A program made the translations under genes and the position numbers. Below, piece after piece: positions 41,210 through 46,006 of a stretch of DNA of 64,000 bases. Location: positions 62,001 to 126,000 of the forward strand of contig NZ_FWZU01000002.1 in assembly GCF_900177375.1 (NCBI RefSeq), in the 5' to 3' direction. This stretch comes from Desulfovibrio gilichinskyi. Its GTDB lineage: Bacteria > Desulfobacterota > Desulfovibrionia > Desulfovibrionales > Desulfovibrionaceae. Position 1 is the stretch's first letter, and the number at the start of each line of letters is the position of its first letter. Below the pieces are notes generated by a model. That model was not told the origin of the DNA. It searched no databases and worked only from the letters and a program-made list of their open reading frames with translations.

Positions 41210-41935
41210 TTATCCGATGCTTTCAAAAATAAGCATGATTCCCATGAAGACAAGCAGAATCATAACCATTCTTTTGTATAGTTCGTCGGAAATTTTTCCT
41301 GCAAGTGAATACCCAAGGGAAACGCCTAGCAGTACTGGAATAAGAGAAGCAAGAAAAAGTTTAAAAACATAAAAAGTAGTTATGCCGCTTATTAAGTGTC
41401 CCGCAGCTCCAAAAGTTGCCGAGGTTATAAAGAATCCGGCAAGAGTTGATTTAAGCTCATCTTTTTCCCAACCCATAACCGCAGCATAAATAATGGCAGG
41501 AGGGCCGCCTGCACTGACTGTGGCTGTGAGAAAGCCAGTTGAAAACCCTCCAAGCAGTCCCCATGAAGGATGTAATTTTAGAACTACAGGTTTAATAAGC
41601 AGGGAATACGCAGCATATCCGGTAAGGAGTACACCGAGTAAAAACATAATAATATCAGAATTTACTTGTTTAACAACAATAGTTCCGAAGATAGCTCCGG
41701 GAATACTGCCTATGGTTAGCGGAAGAACTTTTTTAAGATCAATCTTTGCTCTCAGGTTGAGAACCATTTTAAGATTAATGATAACTCCGCACAAAGTGCA
41801 GACTGCCACAGCTGTTTTGATATCAAGGACAAATGCAAGCAGGGGCATGGCGATCATTGCTGATCCGAACCCTGTTAAACCTTGCAAAAATCCTGCGCTG
41901 AGGAAAATTAGTGGAACAAGGATAAATGGTGTCAT
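41210..41935 (-). CDS. TauE/SafE (TSUP) family permease
   Basis: A 241-residue membrane protein with about seven to eight hydrophobic segments and the two family motifs, GFLQGLTGFGSAMIAMPLLAF-like at the N terminus and GFSTGFLTATVSAGGPP near 130. TSUP proteins move sulfite, sulfonates, sulfoacetate or other small anions. In a sulfate reducer a sulfur anion is attractive, but the sequence does not decide. It is paired with fxsA downstream. The selenoprotein candidate ends 72 nt upstream on the same strand. Confidence 0.85.
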   Translation of the reverse strand: MTPFILVPLIFLSAGFLQGLTGFGSAMIAMPLLAFVLDIKTAVAVCTLCGVIINLKMVLNLRAKIDLKKVLPLTIGSIPGAIFGTIVVKQVNSDIIMFLLGVLLTGYAAYSLLIKPVVLKLHPSWGLLGGFSTGFLTATVSAGGPPAIIYAAVMGWEKDELKSTLAGFFITSATFGAAGHLISGITTFYVFKLFLASLIPVLLGVSLGYSLAGKISDELYKRMVMILLVFMGIMLIFESIG

Positions 41936-42007: not shown

Positions 42008-42232
42008 CTAGTATTTGCGAAGTACTAAAAGAGTTTTATGGTTGTGTACGGAAGTTTCGCTTATGACTTTAGCTTTTTTGACATCGGCGATAATGTCGAT
42101 TCTGTTGCGCTGGCCCAGGGCTATTTCTACGGATAAGGTTTCACCTGAATTAAGATCTTTGAGACGCGAACTCGTCTCTATGAATCCTGTTCAACAGTCG
42201 GCCCAGCAGACAATTGGTTCATTATTATTCAT
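42008..42232 (-). CDS. Candidate selenoprotein with in-frame TGA (Sec14)
   Basis: Reading the TGA at 42191-42193 as selenocysteine (U) gives 74 residues beginning MNNNEPIVCWADCUTGFIET and ending TAG. The Sec follows a Cys-x3-Cys pair, a redox-like arrangement. The part after the TGA is a plausible charged beta/alpha protein (LSVEIALGQRNRIDIIADV), yet it has no in-frame ATG, GTG or TTG, so it cannot be made without reading through the TGA. A hairpin of SECIS type follows the TGA (42161-42178). The ribosome site is weak (GAG 10 nt before the ATG). The alternative is a short decayed gene. I do not recognise the family; a thiol or selenol redox role is only inferred. Ordinary gene callers would miss it or call an antisense frame at 42015-42284. 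Confidence 0.7.
42161..42178 (-). promoter_or_regulatory. Bacterial SECIS-like hairpin
   Basis: On the minus strand a perfect 6-bp stem GAGACG / CGTCTC encloses the loop AGTTCG, with G at the second loop position. The loop begins 18 nt after the TGA, inside the 16-37 nt window used for bacterial SECIS elements, which bind SelB. Confidence 0.65.
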
Positions 42233-42250
42233 AGTGGTTGATCTCGAAGT

Positions 42251-42282
42251 AAGGGCCGGATTCCTTACAGAATCCGGCCCTT
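42251..42282 (-). terminator. Hairpin after the S1-domain gene
   Basis: A perfect 12-bp stem (aagggccggatt / aatccggccctt) with an 8-nt loop starts 5 nt past the S1 gene stop. It lacks a T run on the minus strand. The selenoprotein ATG follows 18 nt later, so some readthrough from the S1 gene would be the simplest way to transcribe it. Confidence 0.65.
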
Positions 42283-42287
42283 GAATA

Positions 42288-43793
42288 TTATTTCTTATTT
42301 TTCATGGCTTCTTGGAGTTTCATTCCAAGAAGTCCGCCGAATCCACTGGAGTCGCCGGAAGTAGTGACTTTGGGTTCAGCAGCTTTACGCGGTGAAGATT
42401 TTTTAGGAGCAGCAGGTTTTGCATACTTCTTCCAATCTGTATCTTCTTTAGGTTCGCCTGTGGTCAGGGTTACCTTGCGGTCAGCTAAGTTGATTTCTTC
42501 AATGGTCAGTTTAACTTTCTGGCCTGGAGTCAACGCTTCCAGCTCATTTTTCCTTTCTGAGCGGGTAATACGTGACATGGGCAGAAGGCCGGTAATTCCA
42601 GGAGCAAGGCTTACGAAAATACCGAATTCGGCTTTATTTTCGACAACGCCTTCAACTTCTGTTCCGACTTTGAAAGATTCCGCCGCGTCAAGCCATGGAT
42701 CACCTTCAGCATCTTTCATGCTGAGCGCAATACGGCGTTTAACGAGGTCAAGATCTTTAATCATGACGGAAACTTCCTGTCCGGCAGTGACTTCTTCACT
42801 TGGTTTGTGAACGCGCTTGGTATAGCTCATTTCAGAAATATGAACTAAACCTTCGATGCCTGGTGCGATTTCAACAAATACGCCGAAATCTGTGCAACGG
42901 GCAACTGTTCCGGTAACCTTGTCGCCGGATTTAAACTTTTCACCGACTTCGTCCCAAGGGTCAGCCTGAAGCTGCTTGAGAGAAAGACTGATCTTAAGTC
43001 CTTTTCCGTCCTTACGCGGTTCCATGGCAAGGATTCTGACAGTGATGTCATCACCTGGCTGAACGATGTCTTCGGGCTTAGCAGATCGTGACCAGCTAAG
43101 TTCTGACACGTGGACCATTCCTTCCACTCCGGGGACAAGTTCCACAAATGCGCCGAAGGCCATAAGTTTGGTAACTTTACCTTCAAGAACTGCTCCAGGC
43201 TCAACCTCCGCGATGAATTTCTCGCGGGATTTTTCCTGTTCAACCTCAAGAAGAGCTCTGCGGGAAACAACTACGTTGCGTCCGCCTTCCTCAAACTTGA
43301 TGATCTTGAAATTGTGTGTTTCACCCACGTATTGTTCCGGGGTTTCCACGAAAGTTGCGTCAATCTGGCTGACGGGGCAGAACACCTTGCGGTGCATCAT
43401 GCTGACTCTGAAACCGCCTTTGCAGGTTTCCATAACCTTGCCTTCTACCGGTAGGCCGCTTTCATATGCATCGTTGAGCATATTGAGGCCGCCTGCGCCG
43501 GACATGGCTTTGGATAGGCTGATTCCATTATTGTCAATGGAGATAACGTAAAGTTCTACGGCATCTCCTTCCTTAACGGTCAGTTCGCCTTCTGAATCAG
43601 TAAGCTCGTCACGGTTAACTATTCCGTCAACTTTTGAGCCTGTGTCTACAAACACAGAGTCTTTAGTGACTGAAATTACAGTTCCTTTAACTAGATCACC
43701 GACCTGAAGGTTGTCGTTTGATTCTGACTGAAAAGCTTCAAACAGTTCGGCAAAGTTTTCTTCGCCATTTGCTTCCAAGTTATGCTCGGACAT
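42288..43793 (-). CDS. S1 RNA-binding repeat protein (ribosomal protein S1-like)
   Basis: A 501-residue protein with five S1 repeats, at about 28-95, 112-180, 199-272, 288-358 and 372-442. Repeats 3 to 5 carry the strongest pattern (GxVxxxxxFGxFVEL.PG.EG.VH.SE). A basic, Pro/Ala/Ser-rich tail follows (KKYAKPAAPKKSSPRKAAE). Family role: binds mRNA on the 30S subunit and helps initiation, especially on weak ribosome sites. It has one repeat fewer than E. coli S1 (557 residues), so rpsA is likely but not certain; a second S1-like protein may exist elsewhere. AGGAG lies 8 nt before the ATG. Confidence 0.88.
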   Translation of the reverse strand: MSEHNLEANGEENFAELFEAFQSESNDNLQVGDLVKGTVISVTKDSVFVDTGSKVDGIVNRDELTDSEGELTVKEGDAVELYVISIDNNGISLSKAMSGAGGLNMLNDAYESGLPVEGKVMETCKGGFRVSMMHRKVFCPVSQIDATFVETPEQYVGETHNFKIIKFEEGGRNVVVSRRALLEVEQEKSREKFIAEVEPGAVLEGKVTKLMAFGAFVELVPGVEGMVHVSELSWSRSAKPEDIVQPGDDITVRILAMEPRKDGKGLKISLSLKQLQADPWDEVGEKFKSGDKVTGTVARCTDFGVFVEIAPGIEGLVHISEMSYTKRVHKPSEEVTAGQEVSVMIKDLDLVKRRIALSMKDAEGDPWLDAAESFKVGTEVEGVVENKAEFGIFVSLAPGITGLLPMSRITRSERKNELEALTPGQKVKLTIEEINLADRKVTLTTGEPKEDTDWKKYAKPAAPKKSSPRKAAEPKVTTSGDSSGFGGLLGMKLQEAMKNKK

Positions 43794-43896: not shown

Positions 43897-44661
43897 TCAA
43901 GATATTTTCGGTAATGATTTTCCATAGAGGGCAGAACCGAGTGCTCCGACCATATCCGGCCCTTCCGGGATGAGTGGTTTGATGCCAAGAGCCTGTGTTA
44001 ACATGTTGATAACACAAGGATTGTTTGCAACGCCTCCTGCAAATACAAACGGTTCGTGTAGGCCGACTCTATGCAGCATATTTGTTGTGCGGCGAACAAT
44101 GGAAGCATGTAAACCAAGGGCAATATCACGCGGATTTTTGCCTTGGGCCATCAAAGAGGTCGCTTCTGTCTCCGCAAAAACAGTGCACATGCTGTTTATT
44201 GTGAGCGGCTCAGTCCCCCCAAGTGCGTAATTTCCGAATTCTTCAATGGGGATTTGAAAAACAGTTGAGAGATGTTCAAGAAATTTTCCTGTTCCGGCTG
44301 CGCAGCGATCATTCATTTCGAATTTGGCAACCTTGCCGTCTTTCATAAGTGAGATTGCTTTAGTATCCTGCCCCCCGATATCGAGAATGGTGCGAGCGTC
44401 CGGGAAAAGGTGCGAAATGCCGAGTGCGTATGCTTTTATTTCAGTCAGTGATACGCAGGGGACTTTGCATATTTCTTCGGTTACAAGCTTTCTGCCGTAG
44501 CCTGTTGCGGAAATCAGATCAGCTTTAACTCCGTCCAGAATGATTTTTAACTGTGAGGCGGGATCGAAAGTTGTGGGGAGCTTGCGTTCCAGTACTATTT
44601 TATTGTCATTAAGAAGTACTAATTCCATTGATCGTGAGCCGATATCAATTCCAGCAATCAT
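43897..44661 (-). CDS. BadF/HgdC-type ATP-dependent reductase (activator) of a double-cubane protein
   Basis: A 254-residue ASKHA-fold ATPase of the 2-hydroxyglutaryl-CoA dehydratase activator family. It has phosphate loops GIDIGSRSMELVLL at the start and LDIGGQDTKA near 96. The two cysteines that hold the [4Fe-4S] cluster across the dimer are seen in NDRCAAGTGKFLE and INSMCTVFAETE. Such proteins pass electrons to a partner with ATP hydrolysis. The partner gene lies 67 nt upstream. The start is set at ATG 44661, which begins the conserved MIAGIDIG; the longer frame from 44700 runs through the intergenic hairpin. Confidence 0.88.
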   Translation of the reverse strand: MIAGIDIGSRSMELVLLNDNKIVLERKLPTTFDPASQLKIILDGVKADLISATGYGRKLVTEEICKVPCVSLTEIKAYALGISHLFPDARTILDIGGQDTKAISLMKDGKVAKFEMNDRCAAGTGKFLEHLSTVFQIPIEEFGNYALGGTEPLTINSMCTVFAETEATSLMAQGKNPRDIALGLHASIVRRTTNMLHRVGLHEPFVFAGGVANNPCVINMLTQALGIKPLIPEGPDMVGALGSALYGKSLPKIS

Positions 44662-44681
44662 TTTTAACTCAGCTTGTTGAT

Positions 44682-44707
44682 ATGAGGGGCGGTAAACCAC
44701 CCCTCAT
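44682..44707 (-). repeat. Intercistronic hairpin between the two reductase-system genes
   Basis: The minus-strand transcript can form an 11-bp stem (AUGAGGGGUGG / CCGCCCCUCAU) with a UUUA loop. The one non-Watson-Crick position is a U-G wobble on this strand, but a C-A mismatch on the other, so the structure favours the minus-strand RNA. No T run follows. It may tune processing or the ratio of the two proteins. Confidence 0.5.
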
Positions 44708-44728
44708 ATTATTTATCTGCAGGATCGT

Positions 44729-46006
44729 TTAGGAAATCATTTCCACAAAGGCTTCAATTCTTGTTTTAAGCTGTTCGACATCTTCCATGCTGTAATCTGT
44801 TTCAATTGCAAGCATGGGGACATCATTTTCTGCAAGTGTTTTTTCAACTTTGAAGGCTTCATGAGTATAGGGCTGGCAGAACATGAGTGAGTAATGGATA
44901 ACTCCGTCAACGCCGGTTTCTTTTGCGAGAGCTTTAATATTGTCCATGCGTTCGTTATTTGGAGTGAAGCAGGCACAGTCTATTTTCATATAGCGGTCGC
45001 AAAGGGCATCAATCATCTCTTCAACGGTTTCGCCTGATTCATCAACAAGATCACGGCTGTTGCGTGTTCCGATGCATGATTCTTCTGCGACAACGACTGC
45101 TCCTGAACCTTCAATTATGTAGGGTAATTTCCAGTTAGGAACAGCCATTGGACAGCCGGAGAGCATAAGCCTCGGTGTATTTTCAGGGACGATGCCTTCG
45201 TTTTTGGCAATACGTTCTTCTATTTGATCACATAGTGTATTGATGGACTGTGTGAAACGGATAGGGTCATCATAAAAGCTGACCTGATTGATGAGAAGAA
45301 CGTCACGTCCGGAAATAGGTGTTGGTTTAGCGGCGCGCAGTTTGTTGAGTCTCTGCAGAGCGCGTCTTTTATCGTTAACTATTTTTATGCCCTTTTTAAG
45401 GGACTCGGCAGTTACGGCCTTACCAGTAACTTCTTCAAGTTTATCTTTCAAGCGCAGAACTTCAGATTTCCACAAAATTCTGTCGCTGGCTTCCTTGCGC
45501 TGCGGTACTTCCATGATATGCATGGGAGCCATTTCGCCGAAGGCTTCGTATGCTTTTTTCTTACCGTCGCAGGTTGTTTCACCGATGATGAGGTCACATG
45601 ATTCGGTGTAAGGGCAGATTTTTGCCATTTTAAAGCCGATGAAAGATTTTATCAATGCGCAAGTGTTGCGGGGAACGATAGTTTCGGCAGCTTCGGTTCC
45701 GGCATCTGCTCCGGCGCAAAGGCCGACCTGAACAGCATCAACCGCGAGAGAAAGTTCTTCTGGAACGAAAACGCAGAAAGTTCCTATTATTTTTTTGCCT
45801 TCAGCTTTGGCATCCATCAATTCTTTAATACGGAGACCATGCACTTCTGAGAGTACAAAGTCTAGATATTCCATGCCCTTGAGACGTCCTTCCTGGGTCA
45901 TATAAATATCACCGTAGAATTTGCCGAGCACTTCGAGAAGCCCGTCATGGGCTGCGATATCAAGATTCAGATTTTCCCACATTTCTTTATACGCCGATTC
46001 TGACAT
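44729..46006 (-). CDS. Double-cubane cluster protein-like (2-hydroxyacyl-CoA dehydratase D family)
   Basis: A 425-residue protein of the HgdB/FldC family. Conserved cysteines occur at TFCVFVPEEL near 77, RNTCALIKSF near 115, PYTESCDLIIGETTCDGKKK near 132-147, LSGCPMAVPNWK near 287, VAEESCIGTRN near 309 and MKIDCACF near 342. True 2-hydroxyacyl-CoA dehydratases need two different subunits of this family plus the activator. Here a single subunit is paired with one activator, which matches the two-gene layout of double-cubane cluster protein ([8Fe-9S]) and its reductase. That family reduces small molecules such as acetylene in vitro, and its natural substrate is unknown. GAGGG precedes the ATG. 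The call as DCCP rather than a dehydratase is inference from operon content. Confidence 0.78.
   Translation of the reverse strand: MSESAYKEMWENLNLDIAAHDGLLEVLGKFYGDIYMTQEGRLKGMEYLDFVLSEVHGLRIKELMDAKAEGKKIIGTFCVFVPEELSLAVDAVQVGLCAGADAGTEAAETIVPRNTCALIKSFIGFKMAKICPYTESCDLIIGETTCDGKKKAYEAFGEMAPMHIMEVPQRKEASDRILWKSEVLRLKDKLEEVTGKAVTAESLKKGIKIVNDKRRALQRLNKLRAAKPTPISGRDVLLINQVSFYDDPIRFTQSINTLCDQIEERIAKNEGIVPENTPRLMLSGCPMAVPNWKLPYIIEGSGAVVVAEESCIGTRNSRDLVDESGETVEEMIDALCDRYMKIDCACFTPNNERMDNIKALAKETGVDGVIHYSLMFCQPYTHEAFKVEKTLAENDVPMLAIETDYSMEDVEQLKTRIEAFVEMIS

Follow-up and report, generated by a model that had tools for sequence, protein, structure and literature searches.

Within a 64,000-nucleotide stretch of the Desulfovibrio gilichinskyi genome (contig NZ_FWZU01000002.1, positions 62,001 to 126,000; this whole stretch is called the window below), a minus-strand gene of 74 codons, running from an ATG at 42232 to a TAG stop at 42010-42008, is, from comparison with its homologues, very probably a real selenoprotein gene. 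An initial annotation had proposed an unannotated small selenoprotein at this place, and the proposal is supported because the frame is conserved on both sides of an in-frame UGA, because a hairpin resembling a selenocysteine insertion sequence (SECIS) covaries, and because SelB and tRNA-Sec are present in the genome; in addition, no in-frame start codon follows the TGA. Computation on sequence and predicted fold supports placing the protein with the TusA/SirA sulfur carriers (PF01206), and it appears to represent a TusA-like selenoprotein family, previously unlisted, in many sulfate-reducing bacteria.

Reading frame and homologues

With the TGA translated as U, the gene (42232→42008) encodes MNNNEPIVCWADCUTGFIETSSRLKDLNSGETLSVEIALGQRNRIDIIADVKKAKVISETSVHNHKTLLVLRKY (74 residues). 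The TGA, codon 14 (42191..42193, minus strand), is very probably read as selenocysteine (Sec14). It directly follows the Cys13 codon (42194..42196, minus strand), which is invariant in the two profile alignments described below, and the Cys9 codon lies at 42206..42208 on the same strand. The single in-frame TGA after a Cys-x3-Cys motif had been described correctly at the outset, with no strand given; the strand is minus, and the plus strand read from 42008 is interrupted by stops. No ATG, GTG or TTG occurs in frame downstream of the TGA on reading the sequence, as had also been stated, and the downstream part is left without a start of its own. By eye, no clear Shine-Dalgarno sequence accompanies the start codon in the window's genus, and GGAGG is seen in several other genera.

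Homologue searches showed that the reading frame is kept both before and after the TGA in samples of the taxonomic family, the class and the phylum. With the window protein as tblastn query, 43 of the 149 genomes of the same taxonomic family (own genome included) carry a homologue, each match containing exactly one TGA. A profile built from 30 sequences (A1) was positive in 54 of 348 genomes of the class and in 21 of 395 genomes of the phylum, the latter count including the own genome, again with one TGA each. The broader profile A4 (35 sequences, 11 of them common to both profiles) matched 33 of 395 genomes in the phylum sample, 32 of which have one TGA. A TGA-specific DNA pattern scan of named genome contigs returned 30 stretches, 26 of which continue as members of the selenoprotein family; carriers found by this pattern include Desulfacinum hydrothermale, Desulfacinum infernum, Fundidesulfovibrio agrisoli, Halodesulfovibrio spirochaetisodalis, Desulforhabdus sp., Desulfoferrobacter suflitae and Syntrophobacteraceae. 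The stretches L127, L129, L136 and L138 were rejected, their sequence not continuing as a family member, and a weakly informative profile search of their genomes gave no match. An exact-peptide scan of the genome contigs with the window protein returned nothing; its pattern wrote Sec as Cys, and near relatives are perhaps absent from the collection.

The Cys-x3-Cys-Sec motif of the initial annotation holds for the window's taxonomic family, where both cysteines are present in all 30 aligned members (A1), and it does not hold generally. At locus L100, from another family of the same class, Leu stands in place of the first Cys, and the members read outside the class carry other residues there (e.g. 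DYRGDCU, DSRKDCU), leaving [DE]-C-U as the core motif across the selenoprotein family. Note that the motif itself was read in selected loci, not in all matches counted. A divergent subfamily (L079, L082, L208, L210-L212, L214, L215) shows a DSRKDCUKGLVGVGLRFR-like sequence, and its first helix is followed by two additional residues.

The sequence on either side of the TGA had been called intact and coding-like. Homologues keep the frame, and ratios of nonsynonymous to synonymous substitution rates (dN/dS; NG86) were compared in eight sequences of the same genus. Upstream of the TGA (7 codons), 10 of 28 pairs were usable and the median is 0.22; downstream, 17 of 28 pairs gave a median of 0.24. 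Purifying selection is indicated on either flank, although these ratios are rough because mean dS is 1.3 before and 1.8 after the TGA. Downstream of the TGA, differences by codon position number 628, 490 and 1010.

SECIS-like hairpin and decoding machinery

A SECIS-like apical hairpin, GAGACG-AGUUCG-CGUCUC, occupies 42161..42178 on the minus strand, with arms at 42178-42173 and 42166-42161 and the loop AGUUCG at 42172-42167. The distance from the TGA to the loop is 18 nucleotides and the second loop base is G, so the perfect hairpin first reported matches the sequence.

The case for this hairpin is strong because of the comparison among homologues, not because of the fold of a single sequence. 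The comparison set comprises 66 distinct homologous sequences from 111 entries, many of which are duplicates. The median stem is 7 bp, the loop of the best stem begins at +19 in 62 of the 66 sequences, and, taking the better of two registers, the hairpin comes in two sizes, with a 4-base loop in 41 sequences and a 6-base loop in 25. The arms covary, pair types changing on both sides (e.g. C-G to U-A): 388 of 396 arm cells are paired, versus 329.7 (standard deviation 4.4, highest value 344 over 1000 rounds) when the 3' arms are reassigned at random between sequences, a control that gives no probability since the sequences are related. The mean folding energy is -16.0, versus -11.1 in synonymous shuffles, with p of 0.05 or less reached by 38 of the 66 sequences for stem length and by 26 for energy. 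Counted in a single register over 30 sequences, 82.8% of cells are paired, and 0 of 500 shuffles came as high.

The loop region is also conserved at the nucleotide level. The seventh codon after the TGA is Ser in 57 of the 66 distinct sequences and is AGT in 56 of those 57, and AGTT stands at +19 to +22 in 56 of 66; in the window's mechanically called open reading frames of 300 residues or more, 11.5% of the 1046 Ser codons are AGT. By simple pairing, the hairpin is short or off-register at L097, L025, L137 and L148, and the loop serine of L097 is TCC. Over the whole window, Rfam at gathering scores returned a tRNA alone.

Of the selenocysteine machinery that such a gene calls for, SelB (386 bits, cut-off 242) and tRNA-Sec (80 bits) are present in the own genome. 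The same taxonomic family has 43 carriers, and SelB passes its cut-off in 39 of them. The negative carriers G014, G022, G077 and G145 are fragmented genomes (completeness 95, 67, 89 and 75%, respectively), and G014 and G077 each have a strong tRNA-Sec match.

Relation to TusA/SirA and to known selenoproteins

The initial annotation did not recognise the family; by sequence and predicted fold it can be placed with TusA/SirA. Modeled with Cys substituted for Sec, the protein is predicted to adopt a beta-alpha-beta-alpha-beta-beta fold, as in TusA. The Pfam TusA profile matched 5 of the 30 A1 members at E up to 5 and 4 of the 35 A4 members at E up to 1; in the best-scoring member (L007) the match begins at the counterpart of Cys13, at profile position 10, and aligns 61 residues on 61 positions. 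Cys13 is most likely the counterpart of the TusA catalytic Cys before helix 1, and Sec14 would then most likely replace the Pro that follows this Cys in CPxP. The likeness to TusA/SirA (PF01206, including YeeD/TsuB) lies in size, in the modeled fold and in the Cys before helix 1; if Cys13 is the counterpart, the spacing between this Cys and the beginning of strand 2 is 19 residues in each of the two models. Unlike TusA, however, the selenoprotein family has C-U-x-[GAP] in place of the CPxP motif, scores under the Pfam cut-off and carries Sec and a SECIS-like hairpin. Scanned by itself against Pfam and NCBIfam, the window protein had no match, and a PDB sequence search with the profile found no convincing relative (best E 0.01, a PRDM9 zinc-finger chain). 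Further weak Pfam matches in members, BRCT_2 among them (5 of 35 members, best E 0.0044), were attributed to chance.

Homologues with either Cys or Sec at this site had been anticipated. Sec was found, but no Cys orthologue was seen in profile searches of samples from two phyla, in which Sec forms and classical TusA were seen; other phyla were covered by the TGA pattern scan alone, which is blind to Cys forms. The only phylum match without a TGA (G506) was rejected as a classical TusA with CPVP, and in the phylum of G726 (359 genomes) the search gave 10 weak matches, six of which were inspected and are all TusA-like with CPMT. Classical TusA is a relative that does carry a Cys, most likely the counterpart of Cys13 and not of Sec14, the TusA residue at the Sec site being most likely Pro. 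Sec would then apparently have been gained at a Pro beside the catalytic Cys rather than by Cys replacement, a different route to Sec. According to a passage by the authors of deep-Sep, every known selenoprotein now seems to have Cys-containing homologues, and the same passage allows that their method may filter out families without such homologues (PMC12013277); the present family would sit in that blind spot.

Table 1 of a 2026 review, which lists 119 selenoprotein families and subfamilies and includes those of Haft and Tolstoy 2025, has no TusA or SirA entry (PMC13188914). In NCBIfam (June 2026) neither the set of 30 nor that of 35 members had a credible match (best E 0.009), and among the literature matches listed, judged by title or start of abstract, none concerned a TusA-type selenoprotein, bioRxiv preprints being outside the scope. 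The closest parallels differ in kind. YedF (TIGR03527) shares a TusA-type domain and, as part of a 2015 study describes, a tie to selenium genes (PMC5322559), and it lies with selD near one member (locus L111), but it has a second, DsrE-like domain and a CPxP with Cys, whereas the selenoprotein is a single 74-residue domain with no NCBIfam match to YedF; the own genome holds a separate YedF-like gene. Selenoproteins such as SaoL, SaoC, HgcA, KCU-star and MbdU have a CU motif in common with it, but are other listed families (Table 1, PMC13188914), and the 30 and 35 members gave no NCBIfam match to such models. DsrE-like and rhodanese-like selenoproteins and Sec-containing YeeE/YedE are likewise Sec versions of sulfur-transfer or transport proteins, but belong to other domain families according to the same table.

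Proposed role and gene neighbourhood

We consider it likely that this TusA/SirA-fold selenoprotein, with the catalytic Cys kept and Sec in place of the next Pro, acts as a selenium or sulfur carrier. For decoding of the UGA, SelB and tRNA-Sec would use the hairpin at +13 to +30 as the SECIS. A TusA CPxP Cys takes sulfur from IscS, the CPxP standing at the start of a helix, as a section of PMC11073785 describes. In the selenoprotein, the adjacent Cys and Sec where helix 1 begins may accept S or Se as a persulfide or perselenide from a desulfurase- or lyase-type donor, and the atom may be released reductively as the Cys-S-Se-Sec bond closes; because Sec would stand at the helix start, a lower Sec pKa is expected. 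The protein would then carry selenium or sulfur inside the cell, most likely for selenium metabolism. The carrier role and both its donor and its acceptor are what we infer.

Gene neighbourhoods were surveyed at 36 loci (3 of the window's genus, 15 others of the class and 18 outside the class). In the window's genus the order is S1, selenoprotein gene, TauE, FxsA at all 3 loci. At 14 of the 15 other class loci the selenoprotein gene stands between MenG-like and nucleotide-sugar dehydrogenase-like genes on one side and MqnB and polyprenyl synthase-like genes on the other, with an MqnD-like gene at 7 of 15; the MenG-like, nucleotide-sugar dehydrogenase-like and polyprenyl synthase-like names were assigned by eye, and hidden Markov models support MqnB (182.7 bits, cut-off 124.7), MqnD-like (PF02621) and CbiK at one locus each. 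Outside the class, a CbiK-like gene is present at 7 of 18 loci, no context markers are present at 6 of 18 (apart, at one of them, from its own query), and a LysR gene lies directly upstream at 5 of 18. Of these LysR genes, the three that were tested each exceed the cut-off of the model for the selenium metabolism-associated LysR regulator (NF040786). At L111 the order is selenium-type LysR, selenoprotein gene and PadR-like gene (by eye), followed 2-4 kb on by selD (345 bits, cut-off 125) and yedF (223.5 bits, cut-off 110). Part of the 2015 study ties LysR_Se, YedF and YedE to selenium use (PMC5322559). This LysR and selD-yedF neighbourhood suggests selenium metabolism, the linkage to the regulator being observed in one lineage.

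A passage of the 2026 review calls the delivery of selenium to SelD in the cell incompletely elucidated (PMC13188914), and a Sec-containing TusA behind a selenium-type LysR, once near selD-yedF, is a testable candidate for this step. We regard as rather unlikely the narrower proposal that there is no Cys orthologue at all, that Sec arose at the Pro beside the catalytic Cys and that the protein is a dedicated selenium carrier feeding SelD; if true, a selenoprotein would be required for making selenoproteins.

Several observations weigh against the carrier assignment or its foundations. Taken alone, the window hairpin is modest (z -1.9, with 9 of 200 shuffles folding equally well), and RNAalifold on alignment A2, of mixed loop sizes, found no structure. 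The best Pfam TusA score, 27.9 bits for L007, is below the gathering score of 28.6 bits, and whether Cys13 or Sec14 is the counterpart of the catalytic Cys is ambiguous by one residue in the comparisons. Finally, the neighbourhoods of the 36 loci share no constant gene of sulfur metabolism.

This last point speaks for a TusA-fold selenoprotein that is a plain thiol/selenol redox protein, reducing substrates or scavenging peroxide via Cys-Sec, and not a carrier. We hold this to be possible though not the expected outcome: a selenenylsulfide could form from the vicinal Cys-Sec, and section 7 of the 2026 review considers most uncharacterised selenoproteins likely to be redox in function (PMC13188914), but the TusA-family proteins described in a portion of PMC11073785 are sulfur carriers or thiosulfate handlers, and the LysR and selD-yedF neighbourhood suggests selenium metabolism. 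A role in menaquinone synthesis or quinone-linked electron flow, drawn from the MenG-like/MqnB-type flanks at 14 of the 15 other class loci and the MqnD-like gene at 7, is improbable, since this futalosine-pathway context is found neither at the 3 loci of the window's genus nor at any of the 18 outside the class, and we are aware of no step in the futalosine pathway for which a sulfur carrier is required. Metal binding or trafficking with CxxxCU as ligand would explain three ligand residues close together in the 30 aligned family members, but is very improbable given that neither L100 nor the members read from outside the class have the first Cys, leaving Cys-Sec alone. That the TGA is an ordinary stop, ending a 13-residue peptide or marking a pseudogene, and that the plus-strand mechanical open reading frame overlapping it in a different frame (42015-42284, 89 residues) is the real gene, can be practically dismissed, for although standard callers end here, the TGA and frame are kept across the phylum, there are indications of purifying selection before and after the TGA, and the hairpin covaries. 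Gene callers ending at the TGA would miss the selenoprotein in the gene sets predicted for many sulfate reducers.

The remaining features around the gene all lie on the minus strand, apart from one hairpin. The downstream neighbour in the window's genus is a TauE/SafE membrane transporter gene (41210..41935; PF01925, 118.9 bits), with the same order at L084 and L085, and the upstream neighbour is a 30S ribosomal protein S1 type gene (42288..43793; NF010379, 741 bits, cut-off 648). Further upstream are genes for a BadF/BadG-type (HgdC-like) ATPase activase (43897..44700; PF01869, 146 bits) and a 2-hydroxyglutaryl-CoA dehydratase D-component-like protein (44729..46006; PF06050, 411 bits). In a selenium gene cluster, according to part of PMC5322559, YedF and DUF3343 have among their associations genes for 2-hydroxyglutaryl-CoA dehydratase and its activase; the presence of the pair (43897-46006) just upstream of S1 may be a coincidence with that selenium association. 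Genome G105 (L181), of the same genus, has S1, TauE and FxsA in order but lacks the selenoprotein gene; a Cys copy was not found there either, the tblastn matches at E 10 being at chance level only. The gap between the S1 and selenoprotein genes contains a 14-bp hairpin (42250..42283, strand not assigned), a short way ahead of the start codon; without a good T run on the minus strand, it is perhaps the S1 terminator. In G105, by eye, S1 is followed by a comparable inverted repeat that does have a T run.
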